Assembly (NCBI GenBank): GCA_027001105.1
Contig: JALTMZ010000079.1
Coordinates: forward strand, 7,696 to 20,845
Direction: 5' to 3'
Length of the DNA: 13,150 bases
Origin: Thermococcus sp.
Lineage (GTDB): Archaea > Methanobacteriota_B > Thermococci > Thermococcales > Thermococcaceae
In this document: positions 3,137 to 7,895 of the stretch, in pieces
How the letters are laid out: each line of letters starts with the position of its first letter
Numbering within the stretch: the first letter of the stretch is position 1
Program-made: the position numbers and the translations under genes
Notes under the pieces: generated by a model
The model's input: only the letters and a program-made list of their open reading frames with translations
The model's database searches: none
Told to the model about the DNA's origin: nothing

Positions 3137-4345
3137 TTAGTAAAGCATGACTTCAAACCCAAGCTCACTTAACAGATCAGCCAGCTCTTCGCTGTCAACA
3201 TAGACCAGAAGATGATGATTTCCTAATGTGCCATCCACAAAGTCTTTAGCGTCCTCAATTTTGAGCTTAAGCTGGGTTCTGCATCTCTGCTCACTTTTTT
3301 CTCTCTCAGCTACCATAACACTGGCTACAACAGCTTTTCTTCCCCTTATTTTAAGGAGTGACGCTTTTTTCCGAGGCAAATCTACCTCAACTCCAACCCC
3401 CATACCGCTTTCAAAGTGGGATCTTAAGGTATAACCAGCGATTAGGGGAGCAGTGCAATGGGCCAAAATTATATAATCCTCTCCGTAATCAGCTATATTG
3501 CCCATAAATGCCGGTTTATTGAAGAATTTTCTAATTATCGCCATTCCAAGCAGGGAGTTAAGCTCCCCCTCACAAGCCGCCGGTATTCCTTCGGCATTGA
3601 ACAATGCTAATGCCAAGCATGGTGTTGCTTTAATCTTTCCAATCAGATCAAAGCAGCCTATTGTAAAGCCATCAAGTTTATAGTCTTCGATAATTCTCTT
3701 TAGCGCGACATAAATTCTGCCAGCCTTTACAAGGTCTTCCCTGTTAGGCTCTCTAATTTCTCTCGCTTTTGCTATTACATCCTCAACAGCTTTCCATCCT
3801 TCTGCCTCAGTTACAGATTCGTAGTATTCATAAAACTTCTTCAAGCTTATATGGACATAAGGAAGCTCAAACTTCTCGTTAATGAGCCATGGGGAAATTC
3901 TACCAATCAAACCGAGTCTCAAGTTTAGGAACTTATCGAGCATCTCTTTCATATCATCATAGCCAAGAAGAGCTGCTTTAAGCTCTTCATAACTTGTAAC
4001 CAGTGTTGAAGGTATAAGTCTGTCCCTGAGATATTCCCTAATCTCTACAGCAGCTGCTATTGAGTTGTTGAAGGAATCACCAAAGAGAATCACTGGCTTT
4101 CTGTAGATTGCAAACTCCTTCAGCGGATTTTCAGTTCCACCAGTTAATGGGTATAAGACAATTGCATCAACCTTATTGAAGTCTATTTCCTCCTTAAGGT
4201 CTTTGAACTCTTTTTTTGTGGAAATAAATGCCCCGCCAACAACTTCAAACTCTTCAGAAAGCCTTGTTAAAAACTGCGATGCTTTTTTCTCAAACTTTTT
4301 TGGGTCTGCAATTTCGCTAACTCCAAAGACAACTCCTACTTTCAT
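3137..4345 (-). CDS. L-fucose/L-arabinose isomerase family-like protein
   Basis: A 402-aa protein resembling COG2407 (FucI/AraA-type) proteins. The N-terminal Rossmann-like part (1-150) starts MKVGVVFGVSEI and includes the loop YPLTGGTENP (65-74). The middle/C-terminal core carries the family blocks TPCLALALFNAEGIPAACEGE (about 241-261) with acidic metal ligand E259, PAFMGN (278-283), ILAHCTAP (293-300) with H296, then RSHFESGMGVGVEV. In true isomerases these acidic and His residues bind Mn2+ for aldose-ketose interconversion. The protein is shorter than FucI (about 590 aa), and the archaeal substrate is unknown, so only a related fold and metal site should be assumed. Its ATG overlaps the stop of the upstream PIN toxin gene by 4 nt (ATGA), implying translational coupling in the toxin-antitoxin operon. 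Confidence 0.78.
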   Translation of the reverse strand: MKVGVVFGVSEIADPKKFEKKASQFLTRLSEEFEVVGGAFISTKKEFKDLKEEIDFNKVDAIVLYPLTGGTENPLKEFAIYRKPVILFGDSFNNSIAAAVEIREYLRDRLIPSTLVTSYEELKAALLGYDDMKEMLDKFLNLRLGLIGRISPWLINEKFELPYVHISLKKFYEYYESVTEAEGWKAVEDVIAKAREIREPNREDLVKAGRIYVALKRIIEDYKLDGFTIGCFDLIGKIKATPCLALALFNAEGIPAACEGELNSLLGMAIIRKFFNKPAFMGNIADYGEDYIILAHCTAPLIAGYTLRSHFESGMGVGVEVDLPRKKASLLKIRGRKAVVASVMVAEREKSEQRCRTQLKLKIEDAKDFVDGTLGNHHLLVYVDSEELADLLSELGFEVMLY

Positions 4346-4815
4346 TTTACCTCCTCCATCAGTTTTCTTAACAAAACAGGACTTATTCTGATACCAGCAT
4401 TAACCAGCCTTTGAACCTCGGAGTCAAGATCTTCAATCAATCCATGCTTATAAGCGTTAATTAAAACTCCTAACGTTCCAAAAACAATTAAATTCATCTT
4501 TCTTGCCAATATCCTACCCTTCCTCTCATCAATTAAAATAGGAAGGTTGAGGGATTTTGCCAGAGTTATTGCCTCAGCTTCCCCTCTACCTAATAGAAAC
4601 TCCAATTCGGGGAGAGCTTTGACTTTTCTTATCTGAATCCAGCCTTCCTGTATAGCTCTTTCTATCTCCTCACTTCCAGGCAAGAGTTTACCGTGGATAC
4701 ATACTTCCGTATATACGGCATTGGGAATGAACACATTTTCATATTGCTTCAAAAGGTCAAATCTCCCTATTTTTGCGAGAAGTATGAGGGGAGAGGAATT
4801 AGAGACTATTGACAC
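4342..4815 (-). CDS. DUF3368 PIN-domain toxin of a type II toxin-antitoxin pair
   Basis: A 157-aa protein read from GTG 4815. The start block SIVSNSSPLILLAKIGRFDLL, with NSSPLI replacing the usual PIN DxS strand, is the DUF3368 signature. Further motifs are PNAVYTEVC, GRGEAEAITLAKSL and LIDERKGRILARKMNL (acidic residues of the PIN pocket), then GTLGVLINAYKHGLI. The family is predicted to act as an RNase toxin. An upstream in-frame ATG at 4884 would add 23 residues lying inside the antitoxin gene. GTG 4815 is preferred because GGAGG lies about 9 nt upstream and the family begins at this strand. The gene overlaps the antitoxin by 17 nt and the following isomerase-like gene by 4 nt. Confidence 0.86.
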   Translation of the reverse strand: MSIVSNSSPLILLAKIGRFDLLKQYENVFIPNAVYTEVCIHGKLLPGSEEIERAIQEGWIQIRKVKALPELEFLLGRGEAEAITLAKSLNLPILIDERKGRILARKMNLIVFGTLGVLINAYKHGLIEDLDSEVQRLVNAGIRISPVLLRKLMEEVK

Positions 4816-5068
4816 TTGCAAGTTCCTCCTCAAGCTCACTTTCGTCATATTCAAGAATCGGAACATTATGAGCTTTAAGCTCATCTATGAACTTTTGCAG
4901 GGGCAATTCGGCAAATTCTGTAGCCTGTTCAAGAGATAAAACACCCTCTTTAAAGAGCTCAATAGCTAGGAGAACCTTAGCCTCTCTCTCCAATTCCTTC
5001 AAGTCTTTGTTGTAAAACTTGAGGCTCTCAATTATGTCCCGCTTTACTGATATTTTTATGACCTCCAT
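4799..5068 (-). CDS. UPF0175 family antitoxin
   Basis: An 89-aa protein beginning MEVIKISVKRDIIESLKFYN. The helical block REAKVLLAIELFKEGVLSLEQA, then TEFAELPLQKFIDELKAHNVPI and the acidic tail YDESELEEEL, are typical of UPF0175, a DNA-binding antitoxin family paired with DUF3368 PIN toxins. The N-terminal half should bind the promoter and the acidic C-terminus should occlude the toxin. AGGTGG lies 4 nt before the ATG. It is the first gene of the operon. A perfect TTTGATCAAA palindrome 20 nt upstream is a possible autoregulatory operator. Confidence 0.86.
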   Translation of the reverse strand: MEVIKISVKRDIIESLKFYNKDLKELEREAKVLLAIELFKEGVLSLEQATEFAELPLQKFIDELKAHNVPILEYDESELEEELASVNSL

Positions 5069-5151
5069 AATTCCACCTGTTATTTAGTTTGATCAAATTT
5101 ATTTAAGGTTAGCGTTTTAAACCAAAAAGACTAAATAAACTTGTGGTTGCA
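5069..5151. promoter_or_regulatory. Divergent promoter region of the toxin-antitoxin operon and the PIN partner gene
   Basis: This 83-nt AT-rich spacer separates two divergent genes. It holds TTTATTTAA (5098-5106) and TTTTAAA (5115-5121), either of which could serve as a TATA element for one or both strands, plus the AGGTGG ribosome site of the antitoxin (5073-5078). The TTTTAAA element is about 26 nt from both 5091 (-) and 5144 (+), so one element could drive both directions. Exact starts are not determinable. Confidence 0.45.
5088..5097. repeat. TTTGATCAAA palindrome, candidate antitoxin operator
   Basis: A perfect 10-bp palindrome between the TATA-like elements and the antitoxin start. 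Its position, overlapping the expected transcription start of the toxin-antitoxin operon, fits an operator for antitoxin autoregulation. No second copy was noticed nearby, so the function is inference. Confidence 0.35.
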
Positions 5152-5745
5152 ATGATTCGCTTTGTCCTTGATACCAGCATTTTTGTCAATCCAGACGTCA
5201 GGGTAAAATTTGGCAAAACACCAACTGAAGCTATGAAAAAATTTTTAGAATACGCTGAAAAGCTGTTTGGTAAGGTGGAATTTTACATGTCTCCCGGAAT
5301 TTATAGGGAAATTATGCACTTCGTTGATGAGAGCGAGGTTTCTCCTGATGTTGAGCTTTACATAATAAAGAAGCCCCCAAACGTTCACGACATCAAAATT
5401 CCGGCTTTTGTAGTCTATGAGCTGATTGAGGACATTAGAAGGAGAATTGATAAAGGGTTGAGAGTTGCAGAGAAAGCTGTTAGGGAGAGCGTCCTCGATA
5501 CCGATAATGTTGATAAGATTATCCAAAAGCTCCGTAGAAACTACAGGAAGGCTCTAAGAGAAGGAATAGTGGACAGCAAAGAGGATTTTGAACTGATTTT
5601 ATTGGCTAAAGAGCTCGATGCAATAATAGTTTCAGCCGATGTTGGTATTCTTACATGGGCTGAGAAGATGGGGATTAAATGGGTGGATGCTGCCAAGTTC
5701 AAAGAAGTGCTGGATGAGCTCGTGGAGAAGGTTGGAAAGAGTTAA
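5152..5745 (+). CDS. RNA ligase partner protein, PIN domain
   Basis: A 197-aa PIN-fold protein of the COG1458 'RNA ligase partner' type, typically encoded beside Pab1020-family RNA ligases. It begins MIRFVLDTSIFVNPDVR, where D8 and S10 form the first PIN acidic strand. YREIMHF follows, then VDSKEDFELILLAKELDAII and VSADVGILTWAEKMGIKWVD, carrying the later catalytic aspartates. A long basic helix-rich insert (about 95-145, RRRIDKGLRVAEKAVRE and KLRRNYRKALREG) suggests RNA contact. It is predicted to be a nuclease or RNA-binding protein working with the ligase. ATG 5152 is chosen because the protein then starts at the first strand; an in-frame GTG at 5143 adds three residues. It converges on the ligase with 4 nt between stops. 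Confidence 0.87.
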   Translation: MIRFVLDTSIFVNPDVRVKFGKTPTEAMKKFLEYAEKLFGKVEFYMSPGIYREIMHFVDESEVSPDVELYIIKKPPNVHDIKIPAFVVYELIEDIRRRIDKGLRVAEKAVRESVLDTDNVDKIIQKLRRNYRKALREGIVDSKEDFELILLAKELDAIIVSADVGILTWAEKMGIKWVDAAKFKEVLDELVEKVGKS

Positions 5746-5749
5746 ATCT

Positions 5750-6898
5750 TCAATCAACAAAAGCATGTCCATTCCAAAGTTCCCGGATTTCCTTAGTTGC
5801 GTCGTCATAAACCCTCTTGAATGTGATCTTCCAATAGCCGTTGCCAAGCTCCTCAATGTCATCAATATGGATGTTAAGCCCCATCCTTTCGAAATGAGAT
5901 ACCATCTTATAAGCGGTTTCAATTTTCTTTACCCTAACCGTGAAAATCTCAGCAATCATCTCACCAGCCGCAACATCCCATATTGACTCCACAAAGGGCT
6001 GGAGCAAGGCTTTTCCAAGGGCTTTTGCATACTCATCAAAATCCTCTCCCCTTATGCGCTTCTCTGCAATATAAAATGCTAACCTCTTTATGCGCTGCAT
6101 GAAGTAGCCATAAGGCAAATCAAAGAAAATCCTTGAGCCAATCTTTATGTCGTTAACATTTGCATAGGGCGTTACATACTTCACGATTTTCTTCATATCC
6201 AGACTTTTCATGACTATTCCTTCTCGCCCCTCTTTGCTGAGCCTCTCAATCAGCTCATAAAGCTCATCAATCTTTTCATAGCTATAAAGACCAAAGACTT
6301 CAACGCTCTGAATGCCGTATTCTTCAGCCAGCTTTATCCTTTCCTCAACTGGTATACTCCTCCCAGTTCTCTTTTCTTGAATATCGAAGAGGAAAAACTG
6401 AATATCCTCCTCGACATATGGCGGACCTTCGACTAAATATGGGCTCTCTGGACCTGCCATCTCACCGCAGAGAATTAAATTAGGATGATCTTTGAAGAAC
6501 TGCTCGTTTATGAAGTCCCCAATCCTTTCAGTGGTAAACGGACAAACAAAACCGCCTCTTGTTAGAGCTAAAATTTTCTCTCCAACCTTAGCAACTCTAA
6601 CGTTATACCCATCAACTTTTTCCTCCACATAGAAGGGCTTGTTTTTAAAAATTCTCTTTACACCATTTCTCAGATGGACAACTCTCTTTATGTGAGGAAA
6701 TCCCAAAATTATATCAGACTCATTAAACACAACAGTTCCTCTTCTTAGGCCTTTCGCTGAGTCTTTAAACCTAAGATAGCGTAAACCCTCAAATTCATCC
6801 TCAACTATGCCACCTTTCATTTCTAAGATCTCTATTCTCTCTTCGTCAAGTCCAAGCTTGAGGAGAATATGTTTGAAGTGCGAGCTTACCATTTCCAT
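5750..6898 (-). CDS. ATP-dependent RNA ligase, Pab1020 family
   Basis: A 382-aa nucleotidyltransferase of the archaeal RNA ligase family (TIGR01209/Pab1020), homodimeric and able to circularise single-stranded RNA. Motif I is EEKVDGYN with adenylated Lys K94 (KxDG, 94-97). Other motifs are LCGEMAG (about 143-149, E146), IQFFLFDI (about 166-173), EGIVMKS (about 226-232) and KKIVKYVTP (about 236-244), which supplies the motif V lysines. The remainder is the helical dimerisation region with the basic segment RIKRLAFYIAEKRI. Its length equals the family norm. ATG 6898 and a second ATG two codons in are both possible. No Shine-Dalgarno sequence is visible, and the TATA box CTATATAC at 6925-6932 predicts a leader of only a few bases. 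A box C/D sRNA lies directly upstream on the same strand. Confidence 0.95.
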   Translation of the reverse strand: MEMVSSHFKHILLKLGLDEERIEILEMKGGIVEDEFEGLRYLRFKDSAKGLRRGTVVFNESDIILGFPHIKRVVHLRNGVKRIFKNKPFYVEEKVDGYNVRVAKVGEKILALTRGGFVCPFTTERIGDFINEQFFKDHPNLILCGEMAGPESPYLVEGPPYVEEDIQFFLFDIQEKRTGRSIPVEERIKLAEEYGIQSVEVFGLYSYEKIDELYELIERLSKEGREGIVMKSLDMKKIVKYVTPYANVNDIKIGSRIFFDLPYGYFMQRIKRLAFYIAEKRIRGEDFDEYAKALGKALLQPFVESIWDVAAGEMIAEIFTVRVKKIETAYKMVSHFERMGLNIHIDDIEELGNGYWKITFKRVYDDATKEIRELWNGHAFVD

Positions 6899-6924
6899 CC
6901 CACAATAAAATTAGGGATGTGAGA

Positions 6925-6932
6925 GTATATAG
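6925..6932 (-). promoter_or_regulatory. TATA box of the RNA ligase gene
   Basis: CTATATAC on the minus strand (part of ATCTATATACTC) is centred about 30 nt before ATG 6898. It predicts initiation near 6900-6904, so the ligase mRNA is leaderless or nearly so. It also implies that the ligase has its own promoter between it and the upstream sRNA. Confidence 0.6.
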
Positions 6933-6940
6933 ATTTTTGG

Positions 6941-6999
6941 AATATCAGCATTGGGGAAATTTCATCCCCACCTCAGGTGGCCCCGTATTCATCATCAAT
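6941..6999 (-). ncRNA. Box C/D guide sRNA (2'-O-methylation guide)
   Basis: Reading on the minus strand, all four boxes of an archaeal C/D sRNA are present in order with canonical spacing. Box C is ATGATGA (6989-6995). The 12-nt guide ATACGGGGCCAC (6977-6988) follows, then box D' CTGA (6973-6976) and a 4-nt spacer. Box C' is GGGATGA (6962-6968), one base from consensus. A 13-nt guide AATTTCCCCAATG (6949-6961) then runs up to box D CTGA (6945-6948). L7Ae, Nop5 and fibrillarin would assemble on it, and the base paired five positions upstream of each D box would be methylated. A TATA-like TTTATTAA at 7018-7025 is centred about 26 nt before box C. Transcript ends are estimated a few bases outside boxes C and D. 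No ORF covers this interval. Confidence 0.88.
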
Positions 7000-7017: not shown

Positions 7018-7025
7018 TTAATAAA
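7018..7025. promoter_or_regulatory. Shared TATA-like element for the sRNA (-) and aldo/keto reductase (+)
   Basis: TTAATAAA on plus reads TTTATTAA on minus. Its centre is about 26 nt from 6995-6996, where box C of the sRNA begins, and about 26 nt from 7047-7048, just before the reductase start. One element could therefore direct TBP to both divergent transcripts. This is spacing evidence only. Confidence 0.5.
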
Positions 7026-7047: not shown

Positions 7048-7053
7048 GGGTGA
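7048..7053 (+). promoter_or_regulatory. Ribosome binding site of the aldo/keto reductase
   Basis: GGGTGA lies 5 nt before GTG 7059, the same spacing as other sites in this window. It includes the alternative GTG at 7050, which favours 7059 as the start. Confidence 0.55.
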
Positions 7054-7058
7054 ATGAC

Positions 7059-7895
7059 GTGAAGAGGGTAATTCCGTTTAACGACTTAAAGAAAATCGGG
7101 AATGACAAGGTCACAGCAATAGGAATGGGCACATGGGGGATAGGTGGAAAAGAAAGGGCAGATTATTCAAGAGACAAAGAGAGTATTGAAGCTTTACGCT
7201 ACGGCATGGATTTAGGTATTAATTTAATTGACACTGCCGAATTCTACGGGGCAGGACATAGTGAAGAAATAGTCGGAAATGCCATTAAGGAATACGAAAG
7301 GGATAGCATTTTCATCATCAGCAAAGTTTGGCCTACCAATTTTGGTTATGAAAAAGCAAAGAAAGCCGCTCGGAACAGTGCAAGGAGGCTTGGAACATAT
7401 ATTGATCTTTATTTGCTCCACTGGCCAATTGATGATTTTAAGCGGATCAAAGAGACACTCTGGGCATTGGAAGATTTGGTTGATGAGGGGCTTATACGCT
7501 ACATCGGTGTCAGCAACTTTGATTTGGAGCTCTTGAAGAGAAGTCAGGAGGTTATGAGGAAATATGAAATTGTAGCAAACCAAGTGAAGTACTCCCTCAT
7601 GGATAGACGAGTTGAAAGAACAGGCCTTCTTGAATATATGAAAAAGGAGAATATAGCGCTGATAGCATACACACCGCTGGAAAAGGGACAGTTGGCTCAA
7701 AACTCATGCTTAGCCAAAATAGGAGAAAAATACAGCAAAACGGCTGCTCAAATTGCGCTGAACTATTTAATTTGGTACGAAAATGTAATTGCAATCCCCA
7801 AGGCAAGCAATAAGGAACATTTAAAAGAGAACTTCGGTGCTATGGGCTGGCGTTTGAGTGAAGAAGATTTAAAGAAAGCGAGAGAATGTGTTTAG
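7059..7895 (+). CDS. Aldo/keto reductase
   Basis: A 278-aa NAD(P)H-dependent oxidoreductase of the AKR superfamily with a TIM barrel. The N-terminal GMGTWGIGG loop, [33 protein letters not shown] and YIGVSNF are diagnostic. The catalytic tetrad is D58, Y63, K89 and H121. The C-terminal [17 protein letters not shown] block binds the cofactor phosphate. Thermococcales homologues reduce aldehydes and ketones; the physiological substrate is unknown. Start choice: GTG 7059 has GGGTGA 5 nt upstream and gives [17 protein letters not shown] 7050 (281 aa) would suit a leaderless start from the nearby TATA element and remains possible. Its TAG overlaps the stop of the convergent tRNA-binding gene by 4 bp, so the 3' ends are antisense to each other. 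Confidence 0.93.

Follow-up and report, generated by a model that had tools for sequence, protein, structure and literature searches.

A gene for the guide RNA sR35 directly precedes the Pab1020-type RNA ligase gene throughout one genus of Thermococcaceae, probably as an incidental neighbour

The DNA analyzed here comes from Thermococcus sp. (assembly GCA_027001105.1, contig JALTMZ010000079.1, positions 7,696-20,845 of the forward strand), and this whole stretch of 13,150 nt is called the window below. The window belongs to an 80% complete draft genome (G000), one of seven genomes of its genus (g1) in a sample of 94 Thermococcaceae genomes that were searched; of the other genera of the sample, g3 appears to be Pyrococcus. 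The part of the window under study contains an RNA ligase gene, a box C/D sRNA gene upstream of it on the same strand, a convergent gene for a PIN-domain protein and a divergent gene for a reductase, with the following features in window coordinates:

5143-5745, plus strand: HARP, a PIN_5 "RNA ligase partner" encoded convergently with the ligase (TIGR03875, PF08745)
5750-6892, minus strand: ATP-dependent RNA ligase of the Pab1020/Rnl3 type; the revised start gives a length of 380 aa (TIGR01209, PF09414, PF18330)
6926-6933, minus strand: TCTATATA, TATA-like box and putative promoter element of the ligase gene (genus alignment and offsets)
6943-6999, minus strand: C/D sRNA gene, Rfam sR35 (RF01123; cmscan and four-box motif scan)
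6945-6948, minus strand: box D, CTGA (sequence, motif scan)
6949-6961, minus strand: D guide, AATTTCCCCAATG, with an insecure target (candidate 23S G1790/1791)
6962-6968, minus strand: box C', GGGATGA, one mismatch (sequence, motif scan)
6973-6976, minus strand: box D', CTGA (sequence, motif scan)
6977-6988, minus strand: D' guide, ATACGGGGCCAC, which pairs with 23S rRNA over 10 bp and has C1825 as its predicted target (LSU numbering of genome G087)
6989-6995, minus strand: box C, ATGATGA (sequence, motif scan)
7018-7025, strand open to both: TATA-like element, TTTATTAA (minus) or TTAATAAA (plus), of putative function (genus alignment)
7050-7895, plus strand: aldo/keto reductase, divergent neighbour (PF00248, synteny)

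The sRNA belongs to a known family of guide RNAs, and its position before the ligase is specific to the genus. An earlier note on this DNA, made from the letters alone, had read a complete C/D guide RNA with box D at 6945-6948 of the minus strand, and the four boxes are indeed present, with guide-sized spacings of 12, 4 and 13 nt (C-D', D'-C' and C'-D) and one mismatch in box C'. The Rfam covariance search that the note had proposed identified 6943-6999 of the minus strand as sR35 with 65.4 bits (gathering score 60, E 1.9e-14), and cmscan repeated on locus L046 again gave 65.4 bits for sR35; the genome search scored this site differently, at 52.2 bits, which is below the gathering score of 60, over a slightly shorter match (2-56). 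The site is the sole match of the four-box motif scan on both strands of the window. A chance match of four boxes is unlikely, since the same scan of 400 kb from another genome of the genus, G087, returned 10 sites, as against none in that sequence read backwards.

Because the draft genome that contains the window (80% complete) yielded no rRNA match, the targets of the guides were sought in G087. The D' guide forms 10 Watson-Crick base pairs with the 23S rRNA of G087, and the fifth nucleotide before box D' stands opposite C1825; a guide-rRNA duplex that includes this N+5 nucleotide, together with the order and spacing of the boxes, is characteristic of archaeal C/D box sRNAs. Shuffled guides did equally well on the G087 LSU in 1 of 200 cases, and in 8 of 200 cases when the g3 guide was compared with a g3 LSU. 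All three LSU sequences compared contain the target site, GGCCCCGTAA. By analogy with its family, sR35 most likely uses the D' guide to direct fibrillarin to 2'-O-methylate 23S rRNA. The best 23S sites for the D guide are no better than those of shuffled guides; a candidate site common with g3 is located near G1790 in G087 and near G1810 in G004. In contig C1 of G002, a g2 genome, the SSU and the LSU rRNA were each matched twice, as against once in the other four matching genomes.

The ligase matches TIGR01209 with 503.5 bits (cut-off 136.9) and contains the Pab1020 C-terminal domain PF18330, by which it is a member of Rnl3, and the PIN protein matches TIGR03875 ("RNA ligase partner") with 234.3 bits (cut-off 95.3), so that the assignment of the two proteins to the Pab1020 family and to its PIN partners by the earlier note is borne out. 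The name HARP for the PIN_5 partner proteins is that of PMC12153264. ATG 6892 is the probable start codon of the ligase, in place of 6898, because the sequence ATGGT(A/G)AG is common to the genus and G089 has no upstream ATG. With this start, the sRNA still lies just before the ligase, as had been claimed, at a distance of 52 nt from box D to the start codon in place of the about 47 nt given originally. The TATA-like box TCTATATA occurs 10-11 nt past box D in all seven genomes of the genus (11 nt in the window), in agreement with the TATA box that had been placed shortly after box D, and a TATA-like sequence is found, as judged by eye, at a similar place in relatives lacking the sRNA.

On the other side of the sRNA, the element at 7018-7025 is likely to be the TATA box of the divergent aldo/keto reductase gene and is possibly also used for the sRNA. 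Its TTATTAA core is present in all seven genomes of the genus and, in a way that would fit a reductase promoter, at the loci of G002 and G093, which lack the sRNA, and therefore a promoter shared in two directions appears possible. The reductase perhaps starts at GTG 7059 and not at 7050, judging by eye from a preceding GGTGA site and an ATG at this place in G093. Between HARP and the gene that follows it, 4342-5068 of the minus strand encodes UPF0175 and DUF3368 proteins that resemble a VapBC-like pair; tblastn detected this pair at the locus in G000 and G087 and found none at the loci of G092, G088, G090, G091 and G089.

A search of the phylum (115 genomes) for the ligase gave matches in 83 genomes, all of them Thermococcaceae, and the control genomes of M. 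jannaschii and M. acetivorans also carry the ligase. Over the cut-offs, both the ligase and HARP were found in 79 of the 94 family genomes, neither in 9, the ligase alone in 3 and HARP alone in 3. The exceptions to co-occurrence are mostly incomplete drafts, and in G042 the two genes are represented by adjoining fragments, both below the cut-off. The region upstream of the ligase was scanned in 82 of the 83 ligase-matching genomes (7 of g1, 3 of g2, 9 of g3, 51 of g4, 11 of g5 and 1 of g6); G064, whose ligase is truncated and lies on a small contig, was left out, as were a second partial ligase copy in G061 and a C-terminal ligase piece in G053. The scan reached 700 nt upstream of the point where the ligase profile match begins, except in G067 (455 nt), G086 (384 nt) and G003 (699 nt). 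Downstream flanks were scanned at loci L032-L061 (n=30), L119 and L120, among which a C/D motif was present at the seven g1 loci only.

The earlier note had suggested that the intergenic region be compared across genomes, and the comparison gave a divided answer. All seven g1 genomes contain sR35, over the Rfam cut-off, before the ligase on the same strand, whereas in the 75 other Thermococcaceae genomes the roughly 700 nt before the ligase never contain a C/D sRNA. The same arrangement, over the cut-off, is found at two named loci, L121 (Thermococcus sp.) and L122 (a T. paralvinellae isolate), which do not count as independent since their upstream sequences resemble those of G091 and G089, respectively. 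When 15 loci were submitted to cmscan with a limit of E 0.1, a C/D family was recovered in each of the nine g1-type loci and in none of the other six, namely the sRNA-less loci L119 and L120 and four loci of g3, g4 and g5. Thus, among the Thermococcaceae genomes scanned, a C/D sRNA beside the ligase is confined to a single lineage.

The sRNA itself is distributed more widely than its position. The exact D' guide with its boxes was detected in 7/7 genomes of g1, where it is present in one copy per genome by this pattern (permuted copies fall outside the pattern), in 8/9 genomes of g3 and in 0/78 of the remaining family genomes, five of which have matches to the guide with two mismatches that were not counted as sR35. 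In g3, more than 330 kb separate sR35 from the ligase in six genomes, two further genomes have them on different contigs, and at all eight loci it is found just 3' of the apparent end of another gene, as seen by eye and without an ORF call. Low-scoring sR35 matches (below 34 bits) in g2, g4 and g5 were not counted as sR35 either; the fifteen whose identity was read (L017-L031) proved to be another sRNA, with the D' guide TCTGGAGCCCC.

The surrounding genes are shared beyond the genus. The order tRNA-binding protein, divergent aldo/keto reductase, ligase, PIN protein and a further gene is common to g1 and G002 (g2), and the reductase, the ligase, the PIN protein and the same further gene are found in G093 (g6); between reductase and ligase, no sRNA was detected in G002 or G093. 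In a tree of 32 ligase sequences, the seven g1 genomes group together with a support of 99/97. Because the blocks of G002 and G093 are without the sRNA and the g1 ligases group together, the sRNA was most likely gained before the ligase on the stem of g1; loss elsewhere would be an alternative, and this history of positions is drawn from few lineages, since sR35 is confined to g1 and g3.

The frequency of C/D sRNA genes before other genes was estimated from 400 kb (20%) of one genome, G087, that do not include the ligase locus, with simple ORF calling. Five of the seven good candidates (at most one box mismatch) lie directly before an ORF on the same strand, at a distance of 4-64 nt, as do six of all ten candidates when those with two mismatches are included. 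As these five pairs were found among 427 ORFs of at least 80 aa, about 1% of the genes would have a C/D sRNA upstream. Three of these five pairs served as controls, and each is uninterrupted in all five genus genomes that are at least 90% complete, including the source genome G087 (4/4 others); over all seven genomes, one pair is contiguous in 7/7 and two in 5/7, the misses falling in G000 and G089, which are both incomplete. At G000:C147:510-1873, about 1.1 kb come between the sRNA and the gene of one control pair, which is contiguous in five genomes of the genus. Since C/D sRNAs often precede genes in the sampled member of the genus, the adjacency of sR35 and the ligase looks ordinary, and since the control pairs are similarly kept, its conservation is about as usual for such pairs; both statements draw on a background taken from 20% of a single genome with simply called ORFs and on the three control pairs.

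On these grounds we consider it likely that sR35 is an ordinary guide for rRNA methylation that came to stand before the ligase in the ancestor of the genus and is incidental to the chemistry of the ligase. In this scenario, the sR35 gene would have settled between the aldo/keto reductase and ligase genes in the g1 ancestor, within a gene block that is probably older than the insertion; the ligase would have retained its own promoter just past the sRNA, and sR35 would be at most one among many possible substrates of the ligase. Two points speak against an incidental position, namely that the pair is kept in all genomes of the genus, including two drafts that are 75-80% complete, and that a role in C/D RNA processing has been proposed for the enzymes of the HARP-ligase locus (PMC12153264).

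The latter point leads to the least probable of the readings considered, in which sR35 would be the cognate substrate or sensor of the ligase, HARP would trim its 5' end, and the three genes would be kept together for this reason. In its favour, the sRNA, the ligase and HARP adjoin one another in all seven genomes of the genus, HARP and Rnl3 co-occur and have been assigned a proposed joint role on C/D RNAs (PMC12153264), and the ligase of T. kodakarensis is needed for circular C/D sRNAs: in its knockout, 24 of 31 circular RNAs were lost or strongly reduced, 18 of them C/D sRNAs (Liu et al. 2022, PMC9014305). According to the same source, however, at least three terminal pairs are possible in 21 of 24 circularised RNAs, as against at most two in 16 of 17 C/D RNAs that are not circular, and the sR35 of all seven genus genomes has at most two leading pairs, also with its ends shifted by up to two nucleotides. 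In direct register, the sR35 of eight g3 genomes likewise does not exceed two leading pairs; when shifted, it reaches as many as five, including one G-U pair. A stem of at least 3 bp is a trend and not a rule, and many other C/D candidates are equally weak, three leading pairs in direct register being reached by 3 of 14 sR23-like control sRNAs and by 1 of 10 G087 candidates; since 3/14 controls reached three pairs, the test discriminates poorly. The suggestion that the sRNA is a preferred substrate of the ligase is therefore weakly disfavoured by comparison with PMC9014305. The conserved guide-RNA/ligase module that had also been suggested is not supported, given that C/D sRNAs before an ORF are common (5/7) and that sR35 lies away from the ligase in g3. 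The ligase and HARP, moreover, adjoin without the sRNA in G002, G003 and G093, and a module conserved across the family is ruled out by the 75 other genomes, none of which has a C/D sRNA upstream of the ligase.

A transcriptional effect of the sRNA on the ligase in cis is possible: transcription of the sRNA through or into the ligase promoter could raise or lower ligase expression, or the two could be co-transcribed and the sRNA cut from the leader. Between box D and the ligase start, none of the seven genomes of the genus has a T run longer than 4, so that read-through into the ligase stays possible, and the TATA-like box is kept right past box D. According to Tripp et al. 2017 (via PMC7994747), only 20% of archaeal C/D genes are preceded by a TATA-like motif, and an sRNA that overlaps the 5' end of a gene lowers the transcription of that gene; sR35, however, does not overlap the ligase gene. 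The ligase has a TATA-like box of its own, its sRNA-less relatives look similar by eye, and other genes of the G087 sample commonly have this layout too, which together make such coupling unlikely. A stronger version, in which sR35, the ligase and HARP would form a cis-linked locus where transcription or processing of the sRNA sets the output of the ligase and so ties sRNA supply to circularisation capacity, seems very improbable.

As it stands, the adjacency offers no support that could be cited for a joint pathway of HARP, the ligase and C/D RNAs. It does provide a test bed, since the same sRNA and ligase adjoin in one genus and lie apart in another, and related genomes have the block without the sRNA; a cis effect, if it exists, should be easily seen in this comparison. 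A search of mostly open-access literature retrieved no earlier report of the adjacency.

The sRNA of the window shares with the Rfam family sR35 (RF01123) its boxes and size, and its D' guide core TACGGGGCC is identical to that of g3 genomes, whereas the g1 copy precedes the ligase and the g3 copies lie just 3' of the apparent end of another gene, and the D guide reads TTTCCCC(C)AATG in g1 and TTTCTCCCAAGG in G004. The ligase resembles Pab1020 and TkoRnl (Rnl3, TIGR01209) in its full-length family match and in 71-75% identity to nine g3 ligases, and differs from them in that it adjoins HARP and a C/D sRNA. The HARP-Rnl3 pair described by Seshadri and Gopalan (2025, PMC12153264) is similar in the convergent, adjoining PIN_5 protein and ligase, and dissimilar in that a C/D sRNA stands upstream of the g1 ligase, none being named in section 3 of that paper. 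Mobility of C/D sRNAs is described as a real but unexplained phenomenon in archaea (N. equitans, PMC3491384); unlike mobile C/D sRNAs, sR35 is present in a single copy per g1 genome by pattern, but its differing positions in g1 and g3 would fit such mobility.
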